This document shows, in pieces, positions 9,555 to 50,024 of a stretch of 64,000 nt of DNA. Origin of the DNA: a virus; IMG/VR virus record IMGVR_UViG_3300021197_001752, positions 82,706-146,705 of that record; one strand, given 5' to 3'. The position numbers were made by a program, and so were the translations under genes. How positions within the stretch are numbered: the first letter of the stretch is position 1; every line of letters begins with the position of its first letter. The notes beneath the pieces are model-generated. The model did not search any database and had not been told where the DNA came from. It saw only the letters and a program-made list of their open reading frames with translations.

Positions 9555-9719
9555 TTATAAGTCCTCTAGTATTGATTCTTTTATTTTTGTTACGTCGCCC
9601 AATGTTGCTCCGCCTTGGCTGATAAGCAGGTCGAGTAGAACAAGGGCAGCTTCTGCGCCTGGATGCTCGTCGCTATTCAACTGGTAGCGGATCAACCTGA
9701 TTACCTCTGCTCTCTTCAT
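9555..9719 (-). CDS. Small hypothetical protein, 54 aa
   Basis: 54 aa starting MKRAEVIRLIRYQLNSDEHP. The ATG overlaps the TGA of the PD-(D/E)XK gene (ATGA). Helical, no membrane segment. Co-translated with the nuclease module, so it could be an accessory part of it. Confidence 0.55.
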   Translation of the reverse strand: MKRAEVIRLIRYQLNSDEHPGAEAALVLLDLLISQGGATLGDVTKIKESILEDL

Positions 9720-10417: not shown

Positions 10418-12390
10418 TGTGCTTCCATTTCTTCCTTTGAGTTATTCATCTCAACTAACTTCAATCGCTCTTCCTTGAGCTTGCGCTCTCTTGGATTCCT
10501 ACACTCGTTACAGTCCGATTTAACACCATCTAAATGTGACTTAGTGTTGTCTAAGGCATACTCACTCCATGGTATCATTTCGCCTGGCTTGCACTTGCTA
10601 CATTCCTTACCCGCAAAACTAAGCTCTCGATCGGTTAAGAAAAACAAGCGGTTTTCGTACAAATGCTCAAGAAGCAATGCCTTGCCTTCTTTGGGGTATA
10701 CTTTCTCCCAATACTCAAACCAATCAGTTGTTTGTCGTGAATTATTATCTTTAGCTAATACAAGCCAGAAGTTACTCTGATCATCACGACCGCCTCTAGC
10801 AAGGGGGATGTAGTGATCGACCTCACAGCGACCTTCCTCTACATCCTCAAGCTCTACGTTTGGAGCGCAAACGCCAGCATCAAATAACTCCATATGATCC
10901 TGCATACTGCTAGCGGCAGTTCGCCTGCACTTGATAGCTTGACTAGCTAACCACTGTGTTTCCCTCTTAGCGTCGTCAGCTTGTAAATAATCAAGCATAT
11001 ATTCAAGGCGCTTATTCATGCCCTTGATACGCCAGGCTGATTTCTTACTGTGTGCCCAAGAATAGATTTTTGGATTCTTTAGTTTTTTAGCCTTTTTCTC
11101 AGCAGCGTCTGCTGCTTTATCCCACTGCCTCACCCTGGTCTCTGAGAATGTGTATTTCTTATCCATCCGATCCTGCATTTTCTCATACATGGACCAGAAA
11201 GCCGAGGCGTCGTTTAGTTCAAAGCCCTGCTTATCAAATGCAACAAGTAAGCTCAAGATATCTGAACGATCGCTTTGATCCATATCACCAATAGGTTCAC
11301 CATCAGTTTTGACGTTTGCATTCCAGATCTTAACAAATTGAGCCCACACAGTGTTAGAAAACCTAGGGTAGTAGTGAACCACATCAGCAGACCTAATGTA
11401 CATGTCTTTAAGCCTGTGCTTATTGTTAATAGTGCTAGGTGTCTGCACCTTACCACCAGTAATCTCTCCAGAAACTCTTGCTTCGTGGTATTTCTCATAC
11501 TGCTGATAATCAGCGTACATACTGAATGCACAAGCAATCAACTCATCGTTGGAGTAACGATAGCAATTTGGATAAATGTCTTTATCCTTACTGCTGACCT
11601 TGAAGTACCTCACTGGTGCTGGGGCGTTATGTTCCGCCTTGTATGCCTTCCAAGTATTATATTCTTCTGCTGCATCGTCACGGGCCAGTATGCAAATCTG
11701 TGTATTTGACGCATTGCGATCTTCGGCATCATTTGTGGTCCCTGTAGAGTGCCAGCGACCGAAAGTCATGTAAATCTCTGGATTGGTGTAGCCAGCGAAA
11801 ACATCGACCGAAAAGGTGAAGTTATTAAGGTAATTCCTATGGTCAATCGTAAGTTCTGAGTAAAGAGCACCGTCAGGATACAGCTTTTTATGCTCGGGGT
11901 CGGTTGGATACCACTTAAATTCATCAGCGACGTATGCTGCGCCTGTCTCTACTCTGTTGTTACAGTCAAAAGACATCAACTCAAAAAGATCTTTAATTTT
12001 TTGATCAAGCTCCCCTCTGTCTTCGCCCTGGATCAAGTAGGCCCCATTAGCGTCTTTTGCCTGAAACTGTAACACCAGACTAACCAAAGTAAACGGCTGC
12101 AAGGGGATGCCACGCATTACCGAATCCATGTAAAAGCTCCGAGTTGCCTTATCCCAAAATCCTCGTCGCTGAAATCCCAAGTTCAGCCAGATCTTTTTAT
12201 AGATCGGCTCGACAGCAGGAACTATTACGCCTGATGGCAACGTCTCGGCAGGGGAACCGATAAACACCTGCCTAAAGGTCGGTCGATAAGTGGTTTGATG
12301 CCTGACCTGCCCACTCGATAGTGTAGCGATCTGGGCGTGATGCGTTGGTTTGATACCTTCATCCCATGTTGGTCTTACTGTGTTTGACAA
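10414..12390 (-). CDS. DUF262/GmrSD-like protein with C-terminal HNH nuclease
   Basis: 658 aa from a TTG with GAGGAGG eight bases upstream. Residues about 50-85 (FQRRGFWDKATRSFYMDSVM, then RGIPLQPF) match the DUF262 pattern 'QR.FW.......DS...G.P'. The usual DGQQR is degenerate (IQGEDRGE). Near residue 545, CEVDHYIPLARGGRDDQSN is an HNH nuclease core, followed by a possible Cys4 zinc finger (CSKC...CNEC). DUF262-HNH architecture is found in GmrSD-type type IV restriction. Here it pairs with a separate PD-(D/E)XK protein. Could be phage-borne inter-phage defence or host genome degradation. Confidence 0.65.
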   Translation of the reverse strand: MSNTVRPTWDEGIKPTHHAQIATLSSGQVRHQTTYRPTFRQVFIGSPAETLPSGVIVPAVEPIYKKIWLNLGFQRRGFWDKATRSFYMDSVMRGIPLQPFTLVSLVLQFQAKDANGAYLIQGEDRGELDQKIKDLFELMSFDCNNRVETGAAYVADEFKWYPTDPEHKKLYPDGALYSELTIDHRNYLNNFTFSVDVFAGYTNPEIYMTFGRWHSTGTTNDAEDRNASNTQICILARDDAAEEYNTWKAYKAEHNAPAPVRYFKVSSKDKDIYPNCYRYSNDELIACAFSMYADYQQYEKYHEARVSGEITGGKVQTPSTINNKHRLKDMYIRSADVVHYYPRFSNTVWAQFVKIWNANVKTDGEPIGDMDQSDRSDILSLLVAFDKQGFELNDASAFWSMYEKMQDRMDKKYTFSETRVRQWDKAADAAEKKAKKLKNPKIYSWAHSKKSAWRIKGMNKRLEYMLDYLQADDAKRETQWLASQAIKCRRTAASSMQDHMELFDAGVCAPNVELEDVEEGRCEVDHYIPLARGGRDDQSNFWLVLAKDNNSRQTTDWFEYWEKVYPKEGKALLLEHLYENRLFFLTDRELSFAGKECSKCKPGEMIPWSEYALDNTKSHLDGVKSDCNECRNPRERKLKEERLKLVEMNNSKEEMEAQ

Positions 12391-26717: not shown

Positions 26718-28301
26718 TTATTCCACTTGTTCCCGTAAAACCGAGCAGTTTGTAGTAATTAAAATACCCGCTGCTGAGGAAGCGTTTGTAACTGCTGATT
26801 TTGTTACTTTCACTGGGTCTATAACACCCACCTCGATCAAGTCCTCGAAGCGACCTGAGCGGACATTGAAACCTATCAACTCAGTGCCCTCCTCTGTAGG
26901 GATCGAGTTGATAACAACGTCACTAGAGATGCCAGCATTATCTAAGATCTGTCGTAGCGGTGAGTAGCAAGCTGTGATCAAGGTTTGATACCCAAGCAAC
27001 TCACCCCGAGTCTCAAAGTTTCTCTCTGGTAAAGCCATTGCCGCTCTGATCAGACTGATGCCGCCGCCTGGTACTACACCTTCTTCTTGGGCGCTGCGCA
27101 CAGCCTCAAGCGCATCTTCAAATCGATGCTTCTTCTCTTCGACCTCTACCTCTGTTGCACCGCCGACCTGTAGCAGAGACACCCCTGATGCAAGACGGGT
27201 GATCCTTTCCTGTATCTTACCTGCCTGATGAAGATCTTCCGTAGCCTCAACTTCGTTCTTCAAGGTCTCCACTAAAGAATCCATCTCCTCAAAGTTGGTG
27301 TTGCCGCCAACAAAGGTTGTCCTAACCTTAAGGATCTCTACACTCTTACATGTACCTAAGTGCTCTAACTTGATATCGCTTAGACGGATGCCACTGTCAC
27401 GACTGATAAATGTGCCTCCTGTTGTCGTAGCAATATCAGATAAGATAGCTCGGCGCTCCTCGCCGTATTCAGGTACCTTGATTGCAGCGATCTTCATTCC
27501 GTTACGCATACGGTTGATAATCAAGGCTGCCAGCAATTGACCAGAGATCTCTTCGGCGGCAATGATACAAGGCCTTCCATCTCTAGCGATGACCTCAAGT
27601 ACTGGTAGCATCTCCTCCAGTGAATCAAGCTCGTGATCTGTTGTCAGCACTAAAGCATTATTATATTCTACTGCATTTCTTCTGTGGTCAGTAACAAACT
27701 TAGCTGAAACATAACCTGCTGCAACTTTGAAACCCTCAATGACGTCTAGCTTGGTCTCTAACGACCTGCTCTCTTCAATCTTAACTGCTCCGTCCTTACC
27801 TGCTGCAACTACCGCTGATGCGACTAGCTTACCAATAGTGCTGTCCCCATTCGCTGAGACTGTGGCAACATGCTGGATGTCTTCCTCTGACGAAATAGGA
27901 CTAGACATAGTATCTAGCGTACTCAGGATATCCTCAGTAGCCATGTCAATGCCACGTTTCATCTCAACGCCTGAAACACCTACCGCTAATTGTTTCTGAG
28001 CTTCCTTGAGCAAGTCACGGGCAATCACGACAGTCGTAGTCGTGCCATCGCCACTAGCCTTCTCCGTTTCCATGCTAGCCTGGCGAACCACGTCAATCCC
28101 TGCCTGCTCAAAGTCATCCTCCACTTGCACTACTCGTGCGACACTGACGCCATCCTTAGTTACAATGGGTGGTGCCCCTCGTTGATACAGGATAACATTC
28201 TGTCCTGCTGGTCCGAGCGTTGAGCTAACAGCGTTTGCTAGCTTGTTCACCCCTGCCAATAATTTGTTCTGTGTCTCTGCGCCAAATAATATATTTGCCA
28301 T
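26718..28301 (-). CDS. groEL: GroEL-like chaperonin (Cpn60)
   Basis: 527 aa, near full length (E. coli GroEL is 548). ATP-binding motifs TLGPAGQNV, GDGTTTTVV and the C-terminal-domain VVPGGGISL are intact. It lacks the Gly-Gly-Met tail. It would fold phage proteins such as capsid or tail subunits. A GroES-like partner lies elsewhere (47616-47873). GGGGAG precedes the ATG and a strong terminator follows. Confidence 0.9.
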   Translation of the reverse strand: MANILFGAETQNKLLAGVNKLANAVSSTLGPAGQNVILYQRGAPPIVTKDGVSVARVVQVEDDFEQAGIDVVRQASMETEKASGDGTTTTVVIARDLLKEAQKQLAVGVSGVEMKRGIDMATEDILSTLDTMSSPISSEEDIQHVATVSANGDSTIGKLVASAVVAAGKDGAVKIEESRSLETKLDVIEGFKVAAGYVSAKFVTDHRRNAVEYNNALVLTTDHELDSLEEMLPVLEVIARDGRPCIIAAEEISGQLLAALIINRMRNGMKIAAIKVPEYGEERRAILSDIATTTGGTFISRDSGIRLSDIKLEHLGTCKSVEILKVRTTFVGGNTNFEEMDSLVETLKNEVEATEDLHQAGKIQERITRLASGVSLLQVGGATEVEVEEKKHRFEDALEAVRSAQEEGVVPGGGISLIRAAMALPERNFETRGELLGYQTLITACYSPLRQILDNAGISSDVVINSIPTEEGTELIGFNVRSGRFEDLIEVGVIDPVKVTKSAVTNASSAAGILITTNCSVLREQVE

Positions 28302-28307
28302 CTTACT

Positions 28308-29327
28308 CTACTCCCCACGTTCTTTCGGATAGGACAAGCCTACCTTTTTTGGATTATTATCATTGAACAACTTGTATAGTTGTTTTGTTTCTTTCTTTGT
28401 TCTGCCTAAGATAAAACAGTACTTGTGCTTCGGTGGCACGACACGCCACTCACAGCTTTCTCGGTACTGTTTCTCTTTGGCTTTGAGCTTGTCTTTCAAG
28501 CCAGGGGTAGTAACTTCCATTTCTTTCCATTTGGGAGTATACTTACCCATGTATTTCTTCCATTCGCTAGCACCTATGCCTAATGACTCAGCATAGCGTT
28601 TATATTTAGATTTCTTGCGAAAATCTCTATCACTAAACCAACCTCGGGCTTTGTCCTTAGGATCACGATATACTTTCGCTGTGCCCGACGTTTGACCAAG
28701 GTAGGTCCAGTTGAGTGCCTGGTAGATTGTCCCTAACTCTTTAGCAAGAGGATCACTGTAGGCTTCAAACGCTCTGAACCTTGTGTTCTGAACCATCCAC
28801 TTACACGATCTGGATACAATCCAAGATCCCAAATTCTTAGGAGCCCAACTGATAGACGCACCTCGTGATACTAGCTTGACCATGTTCTTGTTATCTTTAC
28901 CGATCAGGTGGCTGAAGGTATTAGGAACTGCCATAACCACAACGCCTGCTAACTCGCCTGTCTTTTTCATCCTAGCTGTGAACCTGTGGGTTGGTCGATT
29001 AGGGAGACAACCTAGGAACTCGTGGCGAATAATAAAGTCTCTGACCTCATCGCATTGTTCTTTGTACTTCTTGACGTCGGCTCTGTATTCCTTATGTTTC
29101 TTCTTATACACTTTTTCAGTATAACAATGTGGCAGCATCAGCTTAGCGGGTTCCGCAACAGCCACAAAGTCAAAGTCAGTAGTGCGTAGAGACTCAGCCC
29201 ATGCCAAGTCCTTACCTATCTCTTGTAGGTCTTCTTGCATGTTGCGAAGCCTAACTTCGTATTGCCAACAATGCTCTGCTTCTAAATCTTTGAATCGCTC
29301 AAAGGGGTCAGCTTTCTTAGCTTTCAC
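28308..29327 (-). CDS. Mom-like DNA modification protein (GNAT-type), putative
   Basis: 339 aa from GTG (GTGAGG upstream). The core reads RHEFLGCLPNRPTHRFTARM, GELAGVVVMAVP, KLVSRGASISWAPKNLGSWI, RAFEAYSDP and TIYQALNWTYLGQTSG. The 'FLG..P...T..F.A...G.L.GVV..G.P......L..........N..S........Y.D....E.GTIYQA.NW.Y.G' pattern is that of phage Mu Mom-type enzymes, which add a methylcarbamoyl group to adenine N6. That assignment is from memory of the family pattern, not a search. Confidence 0.5.
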   Translation of the reverse strand: MKAKKADPFERFKDLEAEHCWQYEVRLRNMQEDLQEIGKDLAWAESLRTTDFDFVAVAEPAKLMLPHCYTEKVYKKKHKEYRADVKKYKEQCDEVRDFIIRHEFLGCLPNRPTHRFTARMKKTGELAGVVVMAVPNTFSHLIGKDNKNMVKLVSRGASISWAPKNLGSWIVSRSCKWMVQNTRFRAFEAYSDPLAKELGTIYQALNWTYLGQTSGTAKVYRDPKDKARGWFSDRDFRKKSKYKRYAESLGIGASEWKKYMGKYTPKWKEMEVTTPGLKDKLKAKEKQYRESCEWRVVPPKHKYCFILGRTKKETKQLYKLFNDNNPKKVGLSYPKERGE

Positions 29328-31333: not shown

Positions 31334-31618
31334 TTATTCTCCGCTTAAGGCTGCTAATATTTCCTGTCGGATCATAGCTTCAAGTTCCAAACTTTCGTTC
31401 TTCTCTTCTTCTTCCTCATCGGCGTCACCGCCTTCTTTATCAATGATAGCTTTCTGAAGACCGTCGGGTAACTCGTCTTGATCACCCTTGAGTTTAGGAT
31501 TATCGTCATACTTCTTAGTTGATTTTTCTTCTAAGCCCTGGCTCTCTTCATCGAGCTTCTGCTGCTCCTCTTTGATGATTTCCTTAAGCCTAGCCTTAGT
31601 AATTTGAAATGTGTTCAT
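31334..31618 (-). CDS. Acidic protein with IIKEE N-terminal tag
   Basis: 94 aa. The N-terminus QITKARLKEIIKEEQQKL carries the peptide shared with eight or more proteins at 36-39 kb. The rest is acidic and low-complexity (DADEEEEEKNES). It is predicted to be disordered and could act as a chaperone-like or scaffold partner of the 663-aa protein that follows. Confidence 0.6.
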   Translation of the reverse strand: MNTFQITKARLKEIIKEEQQKLDEESQGLEEKSTKKYDDNPKLKGDQDELPDGLQKAIIDKEGGDADEEEEEKNESLELEAMIRQEILAALSGE

Positions 31619-31640
31619 GGTAAAAAAGTACTCCTCAATG

Positions 31641-31651
31641 TATAAATAGTT
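31641..31651 (-). promoter_or_regulatory. CTATTTATA motif, candidate phage promoter
   Basis: Minus strand AACTATTTATA, 23 bases upstream of the ATG at 31618. Confidence 0.45.
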
Positions 31652-31653
31652 TT

Positions 31654-32265
31654 CTAACTGGCAAAATCCCGCTCTTCAAACAGAGTATAGGTAAATGAAT
31701 TACCAAATGCTTTAGCCGAGTTGTTGCAAATCTCAATAAATGTATTATAATCATCCACCTTTTGGAACACCTGGCAGCCAGCCGACCACCTCTCAACTAA
31801 GTAAGATTGTGTCCTAGGGTTGCTCCTATGAATGTTGATTCCGAATAGGCCTTCTTGTGTTTCTTCGCAGCCATAATCCAAGATGTCATCCTTGTTGTTA
31901 TCTCGCCAAACACGAACTGGCTTTCTCTGGCATAGAGCTTCGTATTTACCCTGGTGCTTAGCTAGCTTCCAAGTCGAACGATATTGACCTGGGATGAGAA
32001 TAGCTGTGCCCTTTGGGCTCAATGGGTTTTCTAACCAGTGCTTGCCTGGGTCTGTAGTCGCACTCCAGACATGGTGTCTCCACTCTCCATTCTCTCGGTA
32101 GACGGCACAGATGTAGTCATCGAAACGATTACTCTCTGGGTTGTCTACTCTGACTCCAAAGATATTGACATTATAATCTTTATTGCCGTCAAAAAACATA
32201 TAGCCTTTTTTCTCGTAAGCAGCAACGACCGCATCTTTGTCAGCAATAATTTCTTCTAAGTTCAT
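31654..32265 (-). CDS. L,D-transpeptidase (YkuD)-like protein
   Basis: 203 aa from ATG 32265, chosen because AGGAG lies nine bases upstream and it starts just after the ClpP-like gene. FGINIHRSNP and ERWSAGCQVFQ near the C-terminus give the H...S-x-G-C catalytic signature of YkuD L,D-transpeptidases, here with an insertion before it. Such enzymes cross-link or remodel peptidoglycan; related phage proteins may trim it. No signal peptide with this start. Confidence 0.55.
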   Translation of the reverse strand: MNLEEIIADKDAVVAAYEKKGYMFFDGNKDYNVNIFGVRVDNPESNRFDDYICAVYRENGEWRHHVWSATTDPGKHWLENPLSPKGTAILIPGQYRSTWKLAKHQGKYEALCQRKPVRVWRDNNKDDILDYGCEETQEGLFGINIHRSNPRTQSYLVERWSAGCQVFQKVDDYNTFIEICNNSAKAFGNSFTYTLFEERDFAS

Positions 32266-32281
32266 CACTTCTATCTCCTGC

Positions 32282-33034
32282 TTATTCTGGGACATCCCAG
32301 AAAGACTGGTCGAGGATTCTGTCGGCAATACCATACTCAATAGCTTGTTTAGCATTAATATAAACATTTGTTTTCCGCTCCATCATCTTCTTGATCATTC
32401 TCTTATTCATGTTGGTGACACTAGCTAAAGCCTCTACGTATTGATCTTGTAACCACTTTGTTTCTTCATACTCAGTTTCAAGCTCGTGCATAGCACCATG
32501 GTGACCTGCTCGTAGAGAATGGATCATCACTCTGGTATTCTTGCCAATGAACCTACAGCCTTCCGCACCTGATGCTAACAGTAGAACACCTGCTGACATA
32601 ACCTTGCCGAGCCCTACTGTTTCGATAGGCGTTGATGATCTCATCGATAACATCAAATCATGGATACCAAACATGTCGGCAGCGTTACCGCCAAAGGTTG
32701 AAATATAAAACTGCATTGGCTTGACTGCCATGTACTGTTTTGTTTTTTCTGTATTTATTAGAACAAGACTATTGTTGTAGTTGTGATAAATCAATGCTGA
32801 GATAATAGCAGATGCTGACTCCTCATCAAGATTACCACAAAAGTTAATTGCTCGTGGAGTACGTTTCTCGGTGGGCACCTCAACCAAGGTTGGCACCACT
32901 TCTCTTATCTCGTCTTCGGTCATGTCTTCAATAGAGACAACCTCTAAAGCAATGTCAAGGTCAGCTTCGGTTTCTGGTACCAGAACCTCGACCTCTTCTT
33001 TGCTACTCTTCCTCTTCGTCTTCTTCGTTGGCAT
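32282..33034 (-). CDS. ClpP-like serine protease, possible prohead protease
   Basis: 250 aa. S147 in GKVMSAGVLLLASG and H172 in RVMIHSLRAG are the ClpP Ser and His; the oxyanion Gly-Gly is in STFGGNAAD. Where ClpP has its catalytic Asp before the 'F.SA..A..YG..D' segment, this protein reads TNVYINAKQAIEYGIAD, without Asp at the expected place. The acidic N-terminal 60 residues are extra. Some phages use ClpP-fold proteases for head maturation, and the gene sits in the tagged-protein cluster. Confidence 0.75.
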   Translation of the reverse strand: MPTKKTKRKSSKEEVEVLVPETEADLDIALEVVSIEDMTEDEIREVVPTLVEVPTEKRTPRAINFCGNLDEESASAIISALIYHNYNNSLVLINTEKTKQYMAVKPMQFYISTFGGNAADMFGIHDLMLSMRSSTPIETVGLGKVMSAGVLLLASGAEGCRFIGKNTRVMIHSLRAGHHGAMHELETEYEETKWLQDQYVEALASVTNMNKRMIKKMMERKTNVYINAKQAIEYGIADRILDQSFWDVPE

Positions 33035-33386
33035 AAGTATTTCTTCCTTCTTCGGGTAATAGGTCTTTCATAAGATCGCTTTGCCTAAATTGGCTAGCGT
33101 ACTTACTGTATATAGATTGCTCCTGGCGTGTAAAGTATACCTTATCTTCACCAGTTTGTTCATCAAATTCAAATCTAAATTCAAGTTGATCATCTCGATA
33201 CTCGATCAATGCTTGAATATATTGGGTTAGATCCCCTACTTGCATAGCACCTTTCTCAATCTGGTCATATGCAAAGTTGAGTACTCTGCTGGCAACAAAA
33301 AGCTTTTCAGCAGAGACTACCTTATCATCGTCACTAACTTTAGTAAACTTTAGCAGCGTTAGAATATCTTTTACTCTCGCTCTCAT
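33003..33386 (-). CDS. Hypothetical protein, 127 aa
   Basis: 127 aa, helical, basic N-terminus and very acidic C-terminus (EEGRNTYANEEDEEEE). Overlaps the ClpP-like gene by 32 bases. Not recognised. Confidence 0.55.
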   Translation of the reverse strand: MRARVKDILTLLKFTKVSDDDKVVSAEKLFVASRVLNFAYDQIEKGAMQVGDLTQYIQALIEYRDDQLEFRFEFDEQTGEDKVYFTRQEQSIYSKYASQFRQSDLMKDLLPEEGRNTYANEEDEEEE

Positions 33387-33410
33387 AACTTCCTAATTCT
33401 TTAGGGCTAA

Positions 33411-33451
33411 ATAAAAAAAGATGTAGACCAAGTTGCCCTGGCCTACATCTT
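33411..33451 (-). terminator. Rho-independent terminator
   Basis: Minus strand: AAGATGTAGGCC (33451-33440), loop, GGTCTACATCTT (33429-33418; one G-U pair), then TTTTTTATTT. Follows the acidic protein gene at 33483-34067. Confidence 0.85.
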
Positions 33452-33482
33452 ACTTTATAAATGACAAAGTGTAAAGCTTTCT

Positions 33483-34067
33483 TTACTTCTTGTTAAGGAT
33501 GCGCTCAAGAACTCTCTTGAGTACGGCTTCTGTTAAAGCCTCTTCATCTACAACCTCTACGACGGTATCGTCTTTGCGGTTATAGTGATCGCCCATGCCA
33601 TGATCCATTGCTGGATCTGCCATTGCTGGGTCTTCGTGTGCCATGGCAGCATCCCCTTCATCACCAGCTTCCATTTCTGGCATTGGTGACTCTTCCCCTT
33701 CATCATCTTCCTCAGTCTCAACACCGAATGGCTCAAGAGCTTTTAAGATAGCTTGGACAACATCCATGCCGTCGGCATCGGATGCTCCGTCCTCTTCCAT
33801 CTCGACTTCCATATCACCTTCTTCCTCGCCCTCTTCGTGAGCCTCTTCTTCGATGGCGTTTTCCCCAGTAGCGGCTTCCAATTCGGTTACCGTTTCTGTT
33901 TCGGTCTCATCTTCATCAGTTTCGTCTGTCTTGGAGTTCTCCGTGACAGTCTCCTCTGTTACTTCTTCTTCTTCTGTGAAGAATGTTTCGCTGATGACGC
34001 TAACGTCAGCTAACTTAGCCCATCTGCGGATGGTCTGTTCATTTAGTAGTTTATCTTGCTTTGTCAT
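33483..34067 (-). CDS. Highly acidic protein, possible scaffold or prohead core
   Basis: 194 aa. Starts MTKQDKLLNEQTIRRWAKLA; residues about 30-160 are almost all Glu, Asp, Thr, Ala and Met. The C-terminus returns to a helix (TEAVLKRVLERILNKK). It has its own promoter and terminator. Acidic, low-complexity proteins with helical ends are typical of phage scaffolds, and several [LI]-x-E sites are present near the N-terminus (VISE). Role inferred. Confidence 0.55.
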   Translation of the reverse strand: MTKQDKLLNEQTIRRWAKLADVSVISETFFTEEEEVTEETVTENSKTDETDEDETETETVTELEAATGENAIEEEAHEEGEEEGDMEVEMEEDGASDADGMDVVQAILKALEPFGVETEEDDEGEESPMPEMEAGDEGDAAMAHEDPAMADPAMDHGMGDHYNRKDDTVVEVVDEEALTEAVLKRVLERILNKK

Positions 34068-34089
34068 TTATTCAACTCCTTAAAAATCA

Positions 34090-34117
34090 GATATACTTAG
34101 ATGACGTCATTCGTCAA
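34090..34117 (-). promoter_or_regulatory. Sigma70-like promoter
   Basis: Minus strand TTGACG (34112-34117), 16 bases, TATATC (34090-34095). The spacer holds the palindrome TGACGTCA. Upstream of the acidic protein gene, whose ATG is preceded by AAGGAG. Confidence 0.45.
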
Positions 34118-34124
34118 CTGTTAG

Positions 34125-34133
34125 TAAATAGTT
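34125..34133 (-). promoter_or_regulatory. CTATTTA motif with small inverted repeat
   Basis: Minus strand AACTATTTA, within CAACTATTTACTAACAGTTG, an eight-pair inverted repeat (one G-T) with a four-base loop. Shares this form with the copy at 26696. Confidence 0.4.
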
Positions 34134-34145
34134 GTGTAAAAAGTA

Positions 34146-34412
34146 TTATTCCTCCATGAAATCAAAAAGTCCTCTTTTACCTGCTTTTTCCATCGCTTTA
34201 TCTTGAATTTGTTTGACTCTAGGGAAGCTAATCTGCAATCGATCTGCCACATCTCGCAAGCTAAGACCACCTGGATTTTTATTCGCACAAACGACAGAGC
34301 AGTTGCTATCACCCTCATAATCAATCCAGTGCCTACACTCTTGCTTATCACAAGATTTACTGAGCCTGTCAAAGAAGTCAAAGCAAATGCTACCGTTTTC
34401 TAATTTATACAA
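34146..34412 (-). CDS. Sigma-70 region 4-like DNA-binding protein
   Basis: 88 aa from TTG with GGAG eight bases upstream. The C-terminal half reads GGLSLRDVADRLQISFPRVK followed by QIQDKAMEKAGK, the helix-turn-helix of sigma70 region 4. Three or four Cys in the N-terminal half (SCDKQECRHW, NCSVVC) might bind metal. Probably a phage transcription factor; a candidate reader of the CTATTTA motif. Confidence 0.7.
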   Translation of the reverse strand: MYKLENGSICFDFFDRLSKSCDKQECRHWIDYEGDSNCSVVCANKNPGGLSLRDVADRLQISFPRVKQIQDKAMEKAGKRGLFDFMEE

Positions 34413-34413
34413 T

Positions 34414-35460
34414 TTATTTTCTCCGACCGTTTTGTGCAGTCATGATATGTGTTCCACTTTCCATTAGTCCAGCAGAAGTTTGACGGGCCCATTCTACTTT
34501 GTGTTGCAACTCGGCAACAGTGCGTGCACCAGAGTAAGATAAGCCACTCCTGATGCCACCGTCAAGATCCTTAAGAATGTCAACAGCACTACCCTTGAAT
34601 GGGATATAAGAAGCAACACCCTCTGGCGTGGATGATTTGCTGCGCCAGTCCATCTGGGCATCCTTAGAAGCCATGCCACGGTATTCCTTCACTCGACTAT
34701 TATCAGGCAGAGTAATAATATCCCCTGGACTTTCCGTGGTGCCCGCTAACATAGAGCCACACATCACAAAGTCAGCGCCTGCGGCTAAAGCCTTGACCAT
34801 ATCGCCAGAGTTCTTGAGTCCACCGTCAGCGATGATGGCAACGTCTCTATCAGTTCTAGCACAATCAAAAATAGTTTGTAGTCCTGGGAGTCCATGACCA
34901 GTCACTAACCGAGTGCTACAGATGGAGCCGCCGCCAATGTTGCAGCGAACTGCATTAGCGCCCCAGTCGGCTAAGTCGTTGATGCCCTCAAGCGTGCAGA
35001 CATTGCCTGCTATGATATAAACATGATTTCCATATTCTTCCCGCAGAGTCGTAAGAGCATTCTTCATCAGGGAGTGGTGACCGTGGGCTACGTCTACACA
35101 AAGGATATCTACCCCAGAAGCGATTAGAGCTTCTGAGCGTTCTAGGTAATCTCCCGTCACACCAATCGCAGCAGCGAGTTTCTTCTCGACCCATTCAATA
35201 GAGTTGGCTGCTTCGATCGCCATCTTCTGCTGCTCTGCAATAGAGTTATAACGATGGAGCACAGCTAAGCCACCAGCCTTACTCATGGTAACCGCCATCT
35301 GTGCTTCAGACACTGTGTCCATTGGCGATGCTATGATAGGCAGAGTGAACTCCCTGTGTCCTAGGTAGCTCGTTGCATCCACCTCGCTTCTGCTTTCGAT
35401 GTCGCTATATTGCGGCACGATTAGCATGTCGTCATAAGTGACAGCTTCTTTAAACTTCAC
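34414..35460 (-). CDS. guaB: IMP dehydrogenase / GMP reductase family enzyme
   Basis: 348 aa from GTG (GGAGAAGAAG upstream). The catalytic loop [15 protein letters not shown] has C181. [18 protein letters not shown] and [18 protein letters not shown] match IMP dehydrogenase ('PEGVE..VPYKGS...GGLRSGMGY.GA'). The CBS domain pair of cellular IMP dehydrogenase (about 488 aa) is missing. It would oxidise IMP to XMP toward guanine nucleotides. GMP reductase is the close alternative; YRGMASKDA favours IMPDH. Confidence 0.85.
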
Positions 35461-35728
35461 CTTCTTCTCCTACTAGTTGATTAACTTTATCTTGGCATTC
35501 TGGGCAGAACAAGCGAACCATTTCGTTCTTAGCTCTAACCACGACTTTCCAACTCATGTGTGCCTCCCTTGTCTTAGGAAATTCTATACTACAAGTAGAA
35601 CATGTTTTGGGTAGTTTGTCAAACAAATTAATTTGTTTTTGCATACGTTGCTGGGCTTCGTCTGACGCCTGCTTTTGTTTTTTGGTTTTAGCCTTACGCT
35701 TAAGGCGCTTCTTCTGCTTCTTGTCCAT
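35450..35728 (-). CDS. Small zinc-binding protein
   Basis: 92 aa. Very basic N-terminus (KKQKKRLKRKAKTKKQKQ), then CSTCSIEF and LFCPECQDK, a C-x2-C...C-x2-C zinc site. AAGGGGATG before the ATG. Overlaps the start of the IMP dehydrogenase gene by 11 bases. Probably nucleic acid binding. Confidence 0.6.
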   Translation of the reverse strand: MDKKQKKRLKRKAKTKKQKQASDEAQQRMQKQINLFDKLPKTCSTCSIEFPKTREAHMSWKVVVRAKNEMVRLFCPECQDKVNQLVGEEGEV

Positions 35729-35782
35729 TGCATCCCCTTCTCTATAAGGATACCATACCTACACTATTTGTAAAGGATTTAT

Positions 35783-36700
35783 TTATTCTTCTTCTGAAGA
35801 TTCTTCTGAAGGTGCATCACCTGAAGTGTCCTTAGCAGCAAGCTGTACGTTCATCCAAGATTGACCCAATGGGTTTTCAACTGGGGCTTCGGCGAATCTC
35901 TGCACTGATCTTGTCGATTCCTTGGTTGGTGGTACTGGCTCGTTGTTGACAACGATTGTAAAGTTATTGGCACCAAATAACTCTTGATAGTTTTCTTTAT
36001 TGTCCTGAACTTGTTGCCACATCTTCTCTACTTCTTCAGGGTCTAGCTTTCTTTCTCTCTTGGCATTTTGTTTTAGTGCACGTTCAAGCGAGGTGTCCAC
36101 AAAGATCATGTAGGTGTCGTAGCCAAGATCAATTAGGCGTTGGCGCTTTTTCACCATCTTGCTATAATCTTTACCAGTGCCGTCAATCAGCATCCCCAGG
36201 CGACCTGCGGCATAATAGCCCTGAAGCTTTGCTAACTTACCTTTAGCGACGGCTCGGGTAGAATCGCTTCGGTCGCCCAATAGGCCGATCTGGGCTGCAA
36301 GTTCTGCTGCATCCTGACCTTTATACTCGCCTGCTTCTTTAGCAAGCTGAGAGATGGCACCCAAGTCAGCAAGTGGGATACCCATCTTCTTTAGCCCGAT
36401 CTCGAATAGGTTATCACTGTTAACATATTTAAGCCCATAGCGACCCACGAAAGAAGAAGCGTCGAAGGTCTTAGCCTGACCAGCTTCTCGGGCATCAAAC
36501 ATTACATCAGCCACATAAGACTTGCCACTGCCTGGTCCGCCCGCCGTAAATACAGCTTTGAGAATGCCCTTATCGTAGACACCCTCATCCAGTAGTTCTT
36601 CGTTGACTACCCCAGGATGATCAAGTAAATAACTTTGACGCTCCTGTAGCATCTCGCCCTGTGCTTCTTTGATTAGTTGCTTAAGTTGTTTGATATCCAT
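35783..36700 (-). CDS. Zeta-toxin-like P-loop kinase with IKEA N-terminal tag
   Basis: 305 aa. Walker A AGGPGSGKSYVADVMF lies near residues 52-67; GMLIDGTGKDY and IFVDTSLERAL fit the zeta toxin/UDP-GlcNAc kinase-like P-loop family. The N-terminus MDIKQLKQLIKEAQGEML is a variant of the shared tag (LIKE followed by Ala, as in T4 capsid targeting sequences). The C-terminus is acidic. It could phosphorylate a nucleotide, sugar or end group; a virion-packaged toxin is an inference. Confidence 0.65.
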   Translation of the reverse strand: MDIKQLKQLIKEAQGEMLQERQSYLLDHPGVVNEELLDEGVYDKGILKAVFTAGGPGSGKSYVADVMFDAREAGQAKTFDASSFVGRYGLKYVNSDNLFEIGLKKMGIPLADLGAISQLAKEAGEYKGQDAAELAAQIGLLGDRSDSTRAVAKGKLAKLQGYYAAGRLGMLIDGTGKDYSKMVKKRQRLIDLGYDTYMIFVDTSLERALKQNAKRERKLDPEEVEKMWQQVQDNKENYQELFGANNFTIVVNNEPVPPTKESTRSVQRFAEAPVENPLGQSWMNVQLAAKDTSGDAPSEESSEEE

Positions 36701-36705
36701 GCTAC

Positions 36706-37632
36706 TTATTTACTTCCCATTTCTAACAAGACATTCCTAAATTCTTCTTGAATGATTTTGTTTAGAGCACTGTTTGTCATTTTGATATGACGTTGCTTGC
36801 TTTCGCCAAATGGTAGCTCGCCCTGACCTTCTGGCTCGGCTGCCAAACCTTTGGTCTGACTCTTATAAAGGCTGCCGCCTTGCGCCAATAGATTCAACAC
36901 ACCCTTTACGCTGCCGATGTTTCCATGACCACCTCTTAGTTTCTTGAGGGCATCATATTTCTCGTCTTCGAGCTTATCATCACCAAAGGGGAACTGTACA
37001 CTAAGGTTGAATGCGGTTTTAGATGTGTCGCCTCGGTTTGGAATAGCCTTGAGTTCTATCTCAATATGCTCTGGGTAGAATATATCATACCTCAAAACAC
37101 CTGTGGTGATTGACTCTATGTGAGCAATTGGCTTGTTCTTCATATCTGGAATAATATTTGCCAGCACTTTAGCTAAGTGATCTTCATACTCTACAGCAGC
37201 TTTGACCAATGCATCATAAAGGTCGTTGTCTCTACCACGATCTAGCAAGCCAGCGTGGATGGCCTTGTTCGTCGCCGCCAGGTTCATCTCGCCTTGGGTT
37301 TCTTCTGCTAGCTCTTGTCTAATAATATTTTGTAGTTGTTGTTTTGTGATTTTCATTTTATTCTCCCTTTCATCTAGACCGCCATACATTGTGACTATCT
37401 GTACCGCAGCCTTGTTTACGAGGTCAAAAGGTATCTTATCAAATCTACTCTGGAGATTTTTGATAGTGTATTGTATCTTTTCTTCTTTGTTGTTGCCTTT
37501 GGTAAACTTCTTAATTTTGTCAACACCACCAAATTGCTTAATATAAACGTCAACCATTTTCTGCACGTCCGCTTCGTCGGTGCTGAGCGCCTCTCTAATC
37601 ATTTGACGTATTTGATCTTTGGTAATCTTCAT
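36706..37632 (-). CDS. Double-tagged fusion protein with internal start
   Basis: 308 aa. Residues 1-16 (MKITKDQIRQMIREAL) and again residues 93-109 (MKITKQQLQNIIRQELA) carry the shared tag, with no stop between. The internal ATG at 37356 has AAAGGGAG just upstream, so it looks like two adjacent genes fused in frame, or one gene giving two products. Near the C-terminus ALNKIIQEEFRNVLLEM is a third similar stretch. The middle region (DLYDALVKAAVEYEDHLAKV) is not recognised. Confidence 0.65.
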   Translation of the reverse strand: MKITKDQIRQMIREALSTDEADVQKMVDVYIKQFGGVDKIKKFTKGNNKEEKIQYTIKNLQSRFDKIPFDLVNKAAVQIVTMYGGLDERENKMKITKQQLQNIIRQELAEETQGEMNLAATNKAIHAGLLDRGRDNDLYDALVKAAVEYEDHLAKVLANIIPDMKNKPIAHIESITTGVLRYDIFYPEHIEIELKAIPNRGDTSKTAFNLSVQFPFGDDKLEDEKYDALKKLRGGHGNIGSVKGVLNLLAQGGSLYKSQTKGLAAEPEGQGELPFGESKQRHIKMTNSALNKIIQEEFRNVLLEMGSK

Positions 37633-37636
37633 TTTG

Positions 37637-37810
37637 CTATCCTTCGCTATCTACCAGTCTGTCTAGGATAGCTTGCAGTCTTTCATATTGGGACTTATGT
37701 GCCTGCACGGCTTTCTTAAGCTCTGCTATAACATCATTCATCGTGTCTTTGTCACTATCTGAGATTTCTTCCCTAATAATCTTTCTTAGCTCGCCTTTGC
37801 TAATCTTCAT
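37637..37810 (-). CDS. Small IIREE-tagged protein, 57 aa
   Basis: 57 aa beginning MKISKGELRKIIREEISDS, then a single long helix (VIAELKKAVQAHKSQYERLQ). The ATG overlaps the TAA of the upstream tagged gene (TAATG). Member of the shared-tag family. Confidence 0.7.
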   Translation of the reverse strand: MKISKGELRKIIREEISDSDKDTMNDVIAELKKAVQAHKSQYERLQAILDRLVDSEG

Positions 37811-38058
37811 TAGTTCTTGCCGTCTTCATTTGCTATTGCTTGCATTATCATACGCAGTGAATCGGCGTCCTCCTGAAGCGGGTGATAATCGCCTTCTTGG
37901 TTTTCAATATACTCCGTAAGAGCATTATAGCCGTCTTCCAGAAGATCAAGGGCTCTGGCGAGAGGACCGCCGTAGGAGTCATAAGGGGCATCACCCTCAA
38001 ACTCTTTGAGTAACTCTTCTTTAATAATCTTTTGTAGTTCTTGTTTGGTGATTTTCAT
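37810..38058 (-). CDS. IIKEE-tagged protein, 82 aa
   Basis: 82 aa beginning MKITKQELQKIIKEELLKEF, then acidic helices (LARALDLLEDGYNALTEYIE). ATGA junction with the upstream tagged gene. Body not recognised. Confidence 0.7.
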   Translation of the reverse strand: MKITKQELQKIIKEELLKEFEGDAPYDSYGGPLARALDLLEDGYNALTEYIENQEGDYHPLQEDADSLRMIMQAIANEDGKN

Positions 38059-38246
38059 TTTCTATCTGCTCCCCTGGATAAGGTGTTTAGAGCATTATAA
38101 ATTTCTTTCATCCGAGAATCCTCAAAACTAAGTTCGTTACTTGTGTCATCCACAATGTCTTGTAAAGCGCCCTGTGCGCTGGCTAGCACCTGTGAAGTAT
38201 ACGCTTCTTTGATTATGCTTCGTAGCTCTTCTTTAGTGATTTTCAT
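38055..38246 (-). CDS. IIKEA-tagged protein, 63 aa
   Basis: 63 aa beginning MKITKEELRSIIKEAYTSQ; IIKE followed by Ala is the form closest to T4 capsid-targeting cleavage sites. The rest is one or two acidic helices. Body not recognised. Confidence 0.7.
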   Translation of the reverse strand: MKITKEELRSIIKEAYTSQVLASAQGALQDIVDDTSNELSFEDSRMKEIYNALNTLSRGADRK

Positions 38247-38249
38247 TTC

Positions 38250-38627
38250 TTAGCCCCAGTCGTCTTCGTCTGGTAGACGGCGACCTGACTCTTTGGTTAG
38301 CATCTGAGCGGCTTCCACAGCTATTTGCTCGTCTGCGCCTTGGTCCTCTAGTTCCTTCTTGAACTCCATAAACACACCAGTGGTTGCTTTAAAACGTTCA
38401 TCGCTCAGCATCGCCTTTTGACCGTCGCTGAGAGTCTTGCCTAGAGCCACAGCCCTAAGGACATAAGTGTATTGGTATGTCTCTTTGTCAGTCATTTCTT
38501 CCTTATCCAAGCCAAGCTCCTTGAGGATTGCTTTGACAACCTCGTCTCGACGCTCAAGCTGGTTACCTTTATATGTGACTTCTGTAATATACTTGCGCCA
38601 CTCTGATAATAATTCTTTCATCAACAT
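38250..38627 (-). CDS. Protein with MKELLSEWRKYITE N-terminus
   Basis: 125 aa. The N-terminus MLMKELLSEWRKYITEVTY resembles a second class of short N-terminal leader with L-S-E and I-T-E cut-site matches. The body is helical and charged, ending RRLPDEDDWG. Start ATG 38627 or 38621. In the tagged cluster; function unknown. Confidence 0.6.
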   Translation of the reverse strand: MLMKELLSEWRKYITEVTYKGNQLERRDEVVKAILKELGLDKEEMTDKETYQYTYVLRAVALGKTLSDGQKAMLSDERFKATTGVFMEFKKELEDQGADEQIAVEAAQMLTKESGRRLPDEDDWG

Positions 38628-38722
38628 GCCCCTTCGCAGCTAGCGCAAGCGCAACAGCCGCAGCAGCAGCAACAGTGGCTGCTATTGAATAGATTAACTA
38701 ATTTGTGTAATAGGTTTTTCAT
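38621..38722 (-). CDS. Tiny cysteine-rich protein, 33 aa
   Basis: 33 aa: an N-terminal amphipathic helix (MKNLLHKLVNLFNSSH) followed by CCCCCGCCACASCEGAC, ten Cys in 17 residues. The ATG overlaps the stop of the upstream tagged gene (ATGA) and its end overlaps the next gene's start. Metal binding or multiple disulfides are possible. Not recognised. Confidence 0.55.
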   Translation of the reverse strand: MKNLLHKLVNLFNSSHCCCCCGCCACASCEGAC

Positions 38723-38988
38723 GAGTCCATCTCCAAGGCTAACATGATCTCGTCCATTGCCTTAGAGATGCTCCTAGCAGCATCATCAAGATAACTCTGC
38801 GCATCTTGGATTGGAACACTGCCACCCATCTTATCAACAAGGTCGTTTGAAAGTGAACCGATCTTTTGACGCATCTCCATTAAAGCTGCAACATGTGGCT
38901 GGTCTGCGTGAGGGTTTTTACCAAGGTCAGCGTAGCGCCCGACCTCTTCTTTGATAATCTGCCTTAGCTTTGCTTTGGTGATCTTCAT
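38719..38988 (-). CDS. IIKEE-tagged protein, 89 aa
   Basis: 89 aa beginning MKITKAKLRQIIKEEVGRY, then a helical body (AALMEMRQKIGSLSNDLVDK). Body not recognised. Confidence 0.7.
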   Translation of the reverse strand: MKITKAKLRQIIKEEVGRYADLGKNPHADQPHVAALMEMRQKIGSLSNDLVDKMGGSVPIQDAQSYLDDAARSISKAMDEIMLALEMDS

Positions 38989-38989
38989 T

Positions 38990-39229
38990 CTAGACGTCCA
39001 TCTTGCTCATATCGATATCGCCAGCAGGCTCACCGCTTGGCTTCGTTCCGCCATGGCGATTCTGCATAGCCAGAAGATCATCCATAATCTCTGGTGTTCC
39101 GCCCATCTCTTGGGCTACTCGCATAAGCTCTTGGAACAGCACTTCCATTTGTGTGCTGTACTCTTCGTTGAGTTCTTTAGCAACTTCTTCTTTAATGATT
39201 TCTTTGAGTTGTTCTTTAGTAATCTTCAT
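38990..39229 (-). CDS. IIKEE-tagged protein, 79 aa
   Basis: 79 aa beginning MKITKEQLKEIIKEEVAKEL, then helices rich in Met and Glu (QMEVLFQELMRVAQEMGG). First gene of the tagged run; a CTATTTATA motif lies upstream at 39273-39283. Confidence 0.7.
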   Translation of the reverse strand: MKITKEQLKEIIKEEVAKELNEEYSTQMEVLFQELMRVAQEMGGTPEIMDDLLAMQNRHGGTKPSGEPAGDIDMSKMDV

Positions 39230-48127: not shown

Positions 48128-48156
48128 ATATTACTTTACTCTGATTAGAATGTTAA
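48128..48156 (-). promoter_or_regulatory. Sigma70-like promoter
   Basis: Minus strand TTAACA (48151-48156), 17 bases, TAATAT (48128-48133). Would drive the zinc-ribbon and co-chaperonin genes. Confidence 0.45.
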
Positions 48157-50024
48157 GTAATTTCACACTGTCCGCCTGCACAAGCTGCCTCACCCTTGAG
48201 ATCTGTGTTGTCGTCAAACTCAACAATTTTAGTGAGGTCCAAAGAGGTTAGAGACTTGACCATTTCTTCATACTGTTCCTTAGTGCAATTCTCGAATGGT
48301 GCCTGGACATAAGAGCCACCGTCGTCAGGTAAAACGCTTAGGCCATTATAGCTAACATTGTTTTTCCACATCCATTCGCCGACCTCTTCCCATTCATCAT
48401 TCTTGATTGAGATAGTTGCCGAAACATTGTGAGTGTTCTGCCCTGTTCGGTGCCCAGGGCGAATCCATTCTTTTGTCACCTTCTTGACTCTTTTCAACAA
48501 ATCCAATGCTGACTCTGTTCTTAGGATTGATCCATCAGGGGCTTTTTGTGGGATACTGATAACGGCTGTATCGTGAGGTCTAAAGTAATCATCCTCCACA
48601 AGCTCAGGGTGATGAACTGATAGGTGCGTATAAATTGCTTCATTTTTACCCACACGAAGCCGCCGAATATAATAATCGTTGTGCCAGGCGTGGATGCCAC
48701 TGGAGGTTCCCAGGGTCAAACTCGTGGTGCCAGCAGGCTTTACACAGGTGGTGCGAGACGCCGAGCGAATACCAATAAGTTCGGCTACCCTAACGTTCTC
48801 TTTCTTTACATTCTGAGATGCTTCTTTTAGGGATATACCGTCTGCAAGCACACGACCTGAAGCGATGCCAGTCAGGGAAACACCAACAAGTGCGTCTCTT
48901 TCCGTGTTGCGTTGCCAGACTGGTCGTAGATAATGAAAGTCCGTATAGCCTGCTTGGAGCGTGCCGATGAAGGCTGCTGCCTGGACTCTTTCATTTAGAT
49001 CTTCTTGGCTTTTGATATTGCTAGCATTAACCTCTGTTAGATTACAGAACTGGTGTGGTCGAAGAGCAATTTCACAGCATGGGTTTGTACCCCAGTCTTT
49101 ATCGTTCGAGAGATAAAAACCAGGCTCTCCTGCGCCTGATGCCTTGATCCTTTCCCATAGATTCATAAAATACTCTTTATCAACCTTGTGCCGCAATAAA
49201 ACGACGGAGTTGTTCGCTCTACCTCGCTGTGGGTTAATCTCCCACCAGTTGCCTGACTTCGCTGCGATCATCTCGTCATCGTCGGCTGAGAACAGAGAAA
49301 TCAAGGCGGCTCGACGGATTCCGCCTGCCAATACAGCGTCAGCCACATGGCAAATGATATCATGTACCTCAATCGAGCTTAAATTATCGCCGTCGCTCTT
49401 CTCACTCAATAAGCCCTCAATCTTCACTAGGCACTCACGTAAAGGCTGCGGTCCTGGGGCTTTACCGCCAGATGTTACAAGGCGAGCACCCTTAGGGCGA
49501 ATATCACTAAAATCAAATCGTAATTTCGAGCCGCCATAGAAGTAGCTACGCATAAGATATTTAACGGCATCAGCCCATCCTTCAATACTATCATTGATCA
49601 AGTACCTCCGAGTTCTTTTTGGGTTAGGTTTACGAATTTCTGGTAGTTCCTCAATGTGGTGATTTTGGACTGAAAAGCCCACACCAGTGCCACCCAATAG
49701 GAGAAACATTGTCTCGCCAAAAGCACGCCAATCATTTATTGGTGTATAGGCACAGTTGAAGATCCTGTTGGGAGCGATCTCAATTGGTCTCCCCCCAAAC
49801 TGCATAGAGCGCATCGATGGAAGAACCTTCTTGTCATAAACAAGCTGATACTTCTCACGAATCTCACCCTCCAGTTTAGGATACTTCTTGATGTGCATAT
49901 TCATGTTCCGAGTAACTAACTCTGACCATGTTTCCCTACGTTGATCTTCAGGTAAAAACCTGGCGTACTTCATGTAAACTGTTATATCAGATAGGATCTT
50001 GTTTGATAATTCTGGCTCGGGCAT
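48153..50024 (-). CDS. nrdJ: Class II ribonucleoside-triphosphate reductase (adenosylcobalamin-dependent)
   Basis: 623 aa from ATG 50024 (AAGGAGTG upstream), not from the ATG 54 bases earlier. RIFNCAYTPINDWRAFGETM and FLLLGGTGVGFSVQNH, NPCCEIALRPHQFCNLTEVN, and TCVKPAGTTSLTLGTSSG match the monomeric B12-dependent reductase of Lactobacillus RTPR type. The C-terminal CAGGQC is the redox Cys pair. No B subunit is needed. It makes dNTPs for phage replication; cobalamin supply by the host is implied. Confidence 0.85.
   Translation of the reverse strand: MPEPELSNKILSDITVYMKYARFLPEDQRRETWSELVTRNMNMHIKKYPKLEGEIREKYQLVYDKKVLPSMRSMQFGGRPIEIAPNRIFNCAYTPINDWRAFGETMFLLLGGTGVGFSVQNHHIEELPEIRKPNPKRTRRYLINDSIEGWADAVKYLMRSYFYGGSKLRFDFSDIRPKGARLVTSGGKAPGPQPLRECLVKIEGLLSEKSDGDNLSSIEVHDIICHVADAVLAGGIRRAALISLFSADDDEMIAAKSGNWWEINPQRGRANNSVVLLRHKVDKEYFMNLWERIKASGAGEPGFYLSNDKDWGTNPCCEIALRPHQFCNLTEVNASNIKSQEDLNERVQAAAFIGTLQAGYTDFHYLRPVWQRNTERDALVGVSLTGIASGRVLADGISLKEASQNVKKENVRVAELIGIRSASRTTCVKPAGTTSLTLGTSSGIHAWHNDYYIRRLRVGKNEAIYTHLSVHHPELVEDDYFRPHDTAVISIPQKAPDGSILRTESALDLLKRVKKVTKEWIRPGHRTGQNTHNVSATISIKNDEWEEVGEWMWKNNVSYNGLSVLPDDGGSYVQAPFENCTKEQYEEMVKSLTSLDLTKIVEFDDNTDLKGEAACAGGQCEIT

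Follow-up and report, generated by a model that had tools for sequence, protein, structure and literature searches.

A short N-terminal peptide recurs on small phage ORFs

The locus raises the question of why a run of small phage ORFs with differing bodies should open with one and the same short peptide. In the phage record under study (G000, 146.7 kb), this N-terminal peptide, termed tag A, has the consensus MKITKxQLKQIIKEEL. Within the window (the whole stretch of 64,000 nucleotides analysed), exact tag A opens six ORFs, all on the minus strand (starts 39229, 38988, 38246, 38058, 37810 and 37632), whose shared start reads MK-I-[TS]-K-xx-[LI]-xx-[IM]-I-[KR]-E-[EA] (Table 1). All positions at which a first-pass annotation had placed the peptide were confirmed, with that at 31618 offset by three residues and that at 36700 a weak match. 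Outside the window the record holds five further copies of tag A, and its 1.9–11.3 kb region carries copies of both tag A and a second peptide, tag B. Two of the window proteins have close counterparts in a close relative, G001, at 91% identity with the same tag (79-aa protein) and at 97% identity (94-aa protein). The 308-aa ORF contains an internal tag A at 37356, exact apart from ending IRQE, and is a fusion of two tagged proteins, since its G001 homologue begins at the internal tag.

Table 1 Tagged and associated features of the window (slash, putative cleavage site)
Feature	Position	Strand	Tag or remark
Acidic protein, 94 aa	31334..31618	(-)	Tag A offset three residues, MNTFQITKARLKEIIKEE
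Acidic protein, 194 aa	33483..34067	(-)	N-terminal LLNEQTIRRWAKLADV, resembles RWxxLAG
P-loop kinase, 305 aa, AAA_33 / zeta-toxin-like	35783..36700	(-)	Weak tag A, MDIKQLKQLIKEA
308-aa ORF, fusion of two tagged proteins	36706..37632	(-)	N-terminal tag at 37632, internal tag at 37356
Tag-like segment, degenerate third copy, C-terminus of 308-aa ORF	36709..36792	(-)	IKMTNSALNKIIQEEFRNVLLE; also in G001 homologue
Tag A protein, 57 aa	37637..37810	(-)	MKISKGELRKIIREE
Tag A protein, 82 aa	37810..38058	(-)	MKITKQELQKIIKEE
Tag A protein, 63 aa	38055..38246	(-)	MKITKEELRSIIKEA
Tag B protein, 123 aa	38250..38621	(-)	MKELLSEWRKYITE/V; within the tag A cluster
Tag A protein, 89 aa	38719..38988	(-)	MKITKAKLRQIIKEE
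Tag A protein, 79 aa	38990..39229	(-)	Tag DNA 39185-39229, MKITKEQLKEIIKEE

The recurrence of tag A is not a matter of chance: a strict regular expression matched 10 of the 182 gene calls in the record and none of 2000 N-terminus shuffles, a strict DNA pattern matched the window three times against 0.00 expected, and a looser pattern gave up to 20 matches per phage record with 0 in the reversed control (26 records). Pairwise differences between the window copies were 0.20, 0.18 and 0.45 at first, second and third codon positions. Because the third position varies more than twice as much as the other two, conservation acts on the peptide rather than on the DNA, as had been proposed at first pass. 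The head-to-tail clustering of the copies, among which recombination could matter, might instead suggest an element acting as DNA or RNA (a start-site repeat, recombination seed or translation ramp), but the excess of third-position changes and the existence of in-frame internal copies leave such an element with a negligible chance of being the main explanation.

A second peptide matches the functional positions of the T4 capsid-targeting sequence

Tag B (consensus MKxLLxEWRxFLxE) is carried by about nine proteins of the record, only one of them inside the window. In the T4 capsid-targeting sequence (CTS) MKTYQEFIAE/A, residues 4 and 7 serve targeting and residues 8 and 10 processing (PMC9026906). 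The W-x-x-[FY]-[LIV]-x-E core of tag B has spacing identical to Y4xxF7-I8-x-E10 of T4 and matches all four functional positions, with aromatic residues at those of Y4 and F7; when a tag B profile was run against 255 T4 genes, ipII and ipIII ranked 6th–7th (a tie for 6th). Tag B differs from the T4 sequence in being four residues longer and in having Trp in place of Tyr. Tag A, by contrast, has L8, I11 and I12 in place of the Y and F of T4, and because it lacks these aromatics we filed it as CTS-like in its working rather than as a member of the same sequence family. The T4-like character first suggested for the tag is thus borne out by tag B, whereas tag A itself is unlike T4 in sequence.

The likeness to the CTS of IPI, IPII and IPIII extends to a short N-terminal peptide common to unrelated small proteins, a hydrophobic-x-Glu ([LI]-x-E) motif at its end and a gp21-type protease in the same phage. 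The system also departs from that of T4: tag A is a different sequence, often with a second phi-x-E (phi, hydrophobic) at residues 21–22, up to about 20 proteins are tagged per phage, and two tags occur together and are exchanged.

The first-pass annotation did not include the tag B ORF at 38250–38621, the degenerate C-terminal copy in the 308-aa ORF or the copies at 1.9–11.3 kb.

Tagged bodies are diverse and the tags are exchangeable

Across IMG/VR, 347 tagged ORFs fell into 267 body families (clusters), 220 of them singletons, in line with the earlier remark that the bodies differ. At the fixed positions within residues 1–15, conservation reached approximately 4 bits per column, as against approximately 0.3 bits beyond residue 22. 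Some bodies are nevertheless homologous across tags: those of L077/L342 (tag B) and L111/L344 (tag A) are 76% identical (E 1.9e-28), a GNAT pair comprises L037 with tag A and L100 with tag B (E 3e-18; both above the Pfam cut-off), and AAA_33 kinases were found under either tag. Since homologous bodies can bear tag A or tag B depending on the phage, the two tags are exchangeable modules. These observations bear on the possibility, named at first pass as one that would undo a targeting role, that the N-terminal similarity reflects an ordinary helix common to members of a single divergent domain family. The tag is indeed predicted to be helical, in low-confidence models only, but 220 singleton bodies, unrelated domains, conservation that ends at about residue 22, a body found under both tags and fusions that retain an internal tag make this account scarcely credible and in practice exclude it.

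Domains recognized among the tagged proteins were ART-PolyVal, GNAT, kinase/zeta-toxin and pentapeptide repeats; most bodies have no known domain, and many are short and acidic. T4 Alt acts against RNA polymerase. It is an ART that is packaged and injected (PMC5512222), and T4 Ip1-3 are injected GmrSD inhibitors whose leader is the only part they share (PMC12373910). The tag B protein G000:7299-7832 (177 aa) likewise carries an ART after a phi-x-E tag but matches ART-PolyVal (PF18760, E 6.6e-8), of the polyvalent-protein clade, with no match to the Alt family in Pfam or PHROGs scans. Polyvalent proteins have related effector domains (ART, GNAT) and are predicted to be injected; theirs are large multidomain proteins, whereas in the present phages every small domain is tagged separately. 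By analogy, the type of cargo suggests that the mature tagged proteins would be injected into the host. The analogy covers putative injection and counter-defence for the minority of bodies that have a known domain. The tagged ART and the 308-aa ORF gave poor AlphaFold models (pLDDT 46 and 32, respectively), which were therefore left out of fold searches.

Tagged genes are associated with a gp21-type prohead protease

The T4 gp21-type prohead protease (phrog_207) is encoded by 22 of the 24 records that bear tags, among them G001, where it lies at L141:13928-14524. The corresponding figure for random contigs at least ~55 kb long is 5 of 23 (Fisher P-value 1.1e-6), and tag A occurred in none of those 23. 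G000 is itself a fragment with no head genes and no protease, such that head genes were read from G001; for this reason the T4 Peptidase_S77 model PF03420 found no match in G000, and phrog_207 is the better probe. In six records (G006, G013, G017, G019, G020 and G023) tagged genes adjoin the protease gene or lie within ~1–2 kb of it, whereas in the giant phages (240–293 kb) most tag clusters are distant from the protease. A ClpP-like gene at 32282–33034 was set aside as a candidate processing enzyme, since G002 bears the same tags but has no convincing homologue of it.

The tagged genes that flank the protease occupy the place of the T4 gp67/gp68 region and, like gp67 and gp68, are small and encode short acidic products. 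The conserved protein directly after the protease also has a tag-A-like start, M[KN]KSELKxxIKxLVKECIKEV. These features would suit tags that bring proteins to the prohead core merely as core or scaffold components, degraded or retained as the head matures, with few or no injected effectors among them. However, the T4 pair is degraded and has no common N-terminal tag, and here varied tagged ORFs stand in its place; the ART, GNAT, kinase and pentapeptide-repeat domains, together with bodies of such extreme diversity, better suit cargo, and the T4 prohead core holds core proteins and injected cargo alike. We accordingly regard a purely structural role as unlikely, if the strongest of the alternatives. 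A sorting or interaction signal that has nothing to do with the head, for example one that docks proteins to the tail or baseplate, to a membrane site or to a protein of the host, could account for the distant clusters of the giant phages and for a tag A with no T4 equivalent by sequence. Against it stand the tight association with the gp21-type protease, the tagged genes adjoining it, the exchange with a tag B of T4 capsid-targeting pattern and the phi-x-E that ends both tags, and we consider it distinctly improbable.

Putative cleavage sites within the tags

Tag A ends in I-[KR]-E, with phi-x-E14 in 99.5% of families, and tag B has phi-x-E in 37 of 40, although the search patterns partly select for both. 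In tag A, a second phi-x-E, present in half of the families at residue 21 or 22 (17% and 34%, respectively, compared to 2.7% when shuffled), coincides with the point at which conservation stops. The N-terminal regions of the lineage's major capsid proteins (MCPs), with sites assigned by homology with T4 FLTE/A, end QLLKE/A, QLLRE/T, QLISE/A and QIVSE/A. Glu follows IKE14 (position P1′) in 84% of families, whereas T4 and lineage MCP sites mostly have Ala or Thr; a bias towards small P1′ residues was not specific to phi-x-E among Glu residues in just 26 comparison cases. Tag A may hence be cut at the phi-x-E of residues 21–22, instead of or besides IKE14, though the later motif could also follow from a continuing amphipathic helix. 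Of the cut after IKE/IRE proposed at first pass, the motif itself stands, but Glu and not Ala follows it in most families and residues 21–22 offer an alternative. In the part of the literature on phiKZ and SPN3US available to us, ejection-protein propeptides belong to head proteins that a gp21-related protease cleaves after Glu, and each propeptide has several sites; these phages form another group, and that part describes no comparably short, strongly conserved tag.

Proposed mechanism

Unrelated bodies, tag swaps, the link and adjacency to the protease, the phi-x-E motif and the likeness of tag B to the T4 sequence, all read from sequence data, support the internal-head tag of the first-pass annotation. 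We consider it probable (roughly 0.8) that tags A and B are capsid-targeting propeptides, in an expanded variant of T4 capsid targeting. The tags would bind the scaffold core during head assembly of T4-type phages, so that many small unrelated proteins would be enclosed in the prohead; the gp21-type protease would then cut after hydrophobic-x-Glu, within or at the end of the tag (tag A, I-[KR]-E14 and/or phi-x-E21/22; tag B, [LIV]-x-E14). The mature proteins would thereby be freed, and many would presumably be ejected into the host with the DNA. We give an even chance to a more far-reaching combination, in which widespread large uncultured phages share a standardised, interchangeable A/B cargo code for up to ~20 small effectors per virion, tag A being a CTS with no sequence relation to the T4 one, which may have another core partner and be cut in two steps, at 14 and 21–22. 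N-termini would then suffice to read off all the proteins that such an uncultured phage injects.

Were the capsid-targeting reading true, two peptide patterns would turn hundreds of ‘hypothetical’ ORFs of uncultured phages into predicted head-packaged and probably injected proteins, which could be listed for a given phage on the basis of its sequence. As injected proteins act ahead of phage gene expression, the result would be a searchable catalogue of first-strike candidates for counter-defence and host takeover. The occurrence of the same cargo under two different tags would serve as a natural experiment on the requirements of capsid targeting, and new tags would become available for phage-head protein delivery.

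Occurrence in known phages and an acidic neighbour

These exact tags are absent from the isolates Mel-JY01 and immuto, which have the same MCP and protease types, and tblastn searches of isolates with the 20-residue tags on their own turned up weak matches only. Among nine isolate or reference records checked, none had a tag array, the one exception being three sensible tag-A-like matches, and one frame with a stop, in the 484-kb metagenomic phage LR756508. A search of the open literature, preprints being outside its scope, returned no ‘MKITK’ in connection with phage and no described tag of this kind. Nor did virion proteomics come to light for any of the tagged phages.

RWxxLAG is a C-terminal motif of scaffold proteins of the lineage, and LLNEQTIRRWAKLADV of the 194-aa acidic protein is similar to it; this protein is tentatively a possible core protein.

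Two exchangeable N-terminal tags in a phage lineage

Short N-terminal tags on unrelated proteins, noticed in the first-pass annotation, are confirmed in the 146,705-bp IMG/VR virus record G000, of which the window is bases 82706-146705. They are of two kinds, tag A (MKITKxQLKQIIKEEL-type), which that annotation described, and tag B (MKxLLxEWRxFLxE), which it did not. We regard both as predicted capsid-targeting peptides (probability about 0.8, judged from sequence); the earlier capsid-targeting reading is supported. Each coordinate of that annotation checked out on re-examination; of its nine proposed tag copies, six stand as minus-strand ORF starts and one as an internal copy, the remaining two being offset and weak, respectively. 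Ten of the 182 G000 gene calls match a strict tag A regular expression (0 matches in 2000 N-terminus shuffles). Tag copies differ at third codon positions in 45% of comparisons, versus 18-20% at first and second positions, so the peptide rather than the DNA is the conserved unit, as had been claimed.

Positions of tagged genes and neighbouring window genes
Feature	Position	Coordinates	Strand	Remark
Tag A ORF starts	39229, 38988, 38246, 38058, 37810, 37632	window	minus	tag at N-terminus
Tag A, internal copy	37356	window		in frame within ORF starting 37632
Tag A, offset copy	31618	window
Tag A, weak copy	36700	window
Further tag A genes	1899-2165, 9593-9907, 9904-10296, 10293-10562, 11026-11331	G000 record
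Tag B genes	~5.6-9.6 kb	G000 record		run of small genes
Tag B ORF	38250-38621	window
GroEL-like chaperonin	26718-28301	window		by eye only
IMP dehydrogenase	28308-29327	window		by eye only
ClpP-family protease	32282-33034	window
Acidic protein	33483-34067	window		RW-x-x-LA[GD] near N-terminus
Mom-like DNA modification protein	34414-35460	window		PHROGs
Ribonucleotide reductase	48153-50024	window		PHROGs

Both tag arrays persist in G001, a close relative of 174,625 bp whose proteins show, for the most part, 85-96% identity. In that genome the 308-aa window ORF has a homologue that begins at the internal tag, and the window ORF is therefore a fusion of two tagged genes; locus L078 encodes another, independent protein with two tags.

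The strict tag A DNA pattern occurs in at least 119 IMG/VR stretches. A looser pattern, sought in 26 records, gave up to 20 copies per phage, phages of 240-293 kb included; tag B is present in 12 of these records, and the reversed-control pattern of either tag had 0 matches in the same 26. Across the genomes of ~85,000 species of bacteria and archaea, just 10 stretches matched the strict pattern, and every one of them lay in a metagenome-assembled bin; tag A is therefore a phage feature.

Bodies and cargo

Clustering by body sorts the 347 unique tagged ORFs (a few tag B matches are likely false, e.g. a GIY-YIG-like ORF in L088) into 267 groups, of which 220 have a single member, bearing out the earlier claim of unrelated bodies. 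One body of 74-76 aa carries tag B in three loci (L077/L342/L343) and tag A in two (L111/L344), with 76% identity over 54 body residues and no similarity between the tag regions. A GNAT family bears tag A in L037 and tag B in L100 and others (E = 3e-18), and P-loop AAA_33 kinases were found with either tag. The tags are thus exchangeable between bodies, and the same bodies under either tag are the strongest evidence that both do one job.

Pfam searches of 138 representatives matched ART-PolyVal, GNAT, AAA_33 and zeta-toxin (two each) as well as pentapeptide repeats, with weak LigT and SAM-lyase matches; most bodies have no known domain. By analogy, ART, GNAT and kinase-type cargo would fit the predicted injection, because the T4 ART Alt (PMC5512222) and restriction inhibitors Ip1-3 (PMC12373910) are packaged and injected.

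Relation to the T4 signal and predicted cleavage

Residues 1-10 of IPIII make up the T4 capsid-targeting sequence (CTS); positions 4 and 7 matter for targeting, processing involves positions 8 and 10, and cleavage by gp21 follows L/I-x-E (PMC9026906). T4 MKTYQEFIAE↓A has the pattern aromatic-x-x-aromatic-aliphatic-x-E, which recurs in tag B with identical spacing. A position-specific profile built from 51 tag B cores only, run on 255 T4 gene N-termini, placed gp61.1 at the top, with ipII and ipIII sharing rank six; gp61.1 (NC_000866 18966-19130), annotated as hypothetical, has the CTS-like N-terminus MKTFKEFIKED. Tag A, in contrast, lacks the aromatics, so T4 family membership is claimed for tag B alone, and for tag A only a similar mode of action is proposed. 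What is new is this pair of exchangeable tags, one following the T4 pattern and the other with a novel sequence, on up to ~20 proteins per phage, an arrangement that, as far as sequence goes, expands known T4 capsid targeting.

By homology with T4, the major capsid protein (MCP) sites of the lineage are QLLKE↓A, QLLRE↓T, QLISE↓A and QIVSE↓A. In 99.5% of families tag A has a phi-x-E (phi, hydrophobic) ending at residue 14, and in 84% Glu comes next. In 17% of families a second phi-x-E ends at residue 21 and in 34% at residue 22 (shuffles, 2.7%), and sequence information falls to ~0.3 bits just past these residues. Ala, Gly or Ser follow the 21/22 sites in 42%, compared to 20% at other positions (p = 1e-5); no such excess was found relative to other Glu residues there, and a continuing amphipathic helix is an alternative explanation of the pattern. 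Under the cleavage reading, the prohead protease would cut tag A at residues 21-22, as main or additional site.

Link to head genes

Head genes absent from G000 were read from G001: terminase, portal (phrog_213, 1e-75), gp21-type protease (phrog_207, 1.6e-51), scaffold-like protein and gp23-type MCP (phrog_138, 3e-71). The protease model phrog_207 was matched in 22 of 24 tag-bearing records versus 5 of 23 random IMG/VR contigs of ~55 kb or more (Fisher p = 1.1e-6), and tag A was absent from the same 23 contigs. Tagged genes adjoin the protease gene or sit within ~1-2 kb of it in G006, G013, G017, G019, G020 and G023, a neighbourhood occupied in T4 by gp67 and gp68; in G023 the two genes immediately upstream of the protease bear tags A and B, the latter on the swapped body. 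Most tag arrays of the giant phages are distant from the protease.

The gp21-type protease gene is followed, immediately or at a short distance, by a conserved gene (L141:14521-14892; L151:16814-17200; L163-L173) whose product, a candidate for a core protein and for the docking partner, has a tag-A-like start, M[KN]KSELKxxIKxLVKECIKEVLxEEG. Prohead proteases of giant phages (L178-L180; G005, G014, G008) start with KLLTEW, RLLQEW or similar, like tag B; the propeptide of the protease itself may be the source from which tag B was copied. The RW-x-x-LA[GD] motif of the acidic window protein, possibly MCP- or core-binding, is shared with scaffold-like proteins throughout the lineage, which carry it C-terminally (L141:15671-16687). 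Besides the gp21-type protease that G001 leads one to expect, there is the window's ClpP-family protease gene.

In Flavobacterium phage immuto (L321-L329) four proteins (record positions 1803, 103762, 117587 and 118588) share an N-terminal peptide particular to that phage, MENFDLKKFLVENKLTxNSxLLxE, perhaps another lineage-specific capsid tag; immuto also has a tag-B-like gene directly after its protease. In G001, ~15 small ORFs starting with MKxGDLVR variants (L141:2644-6243) form a paralogous expansion of tiny proteins.
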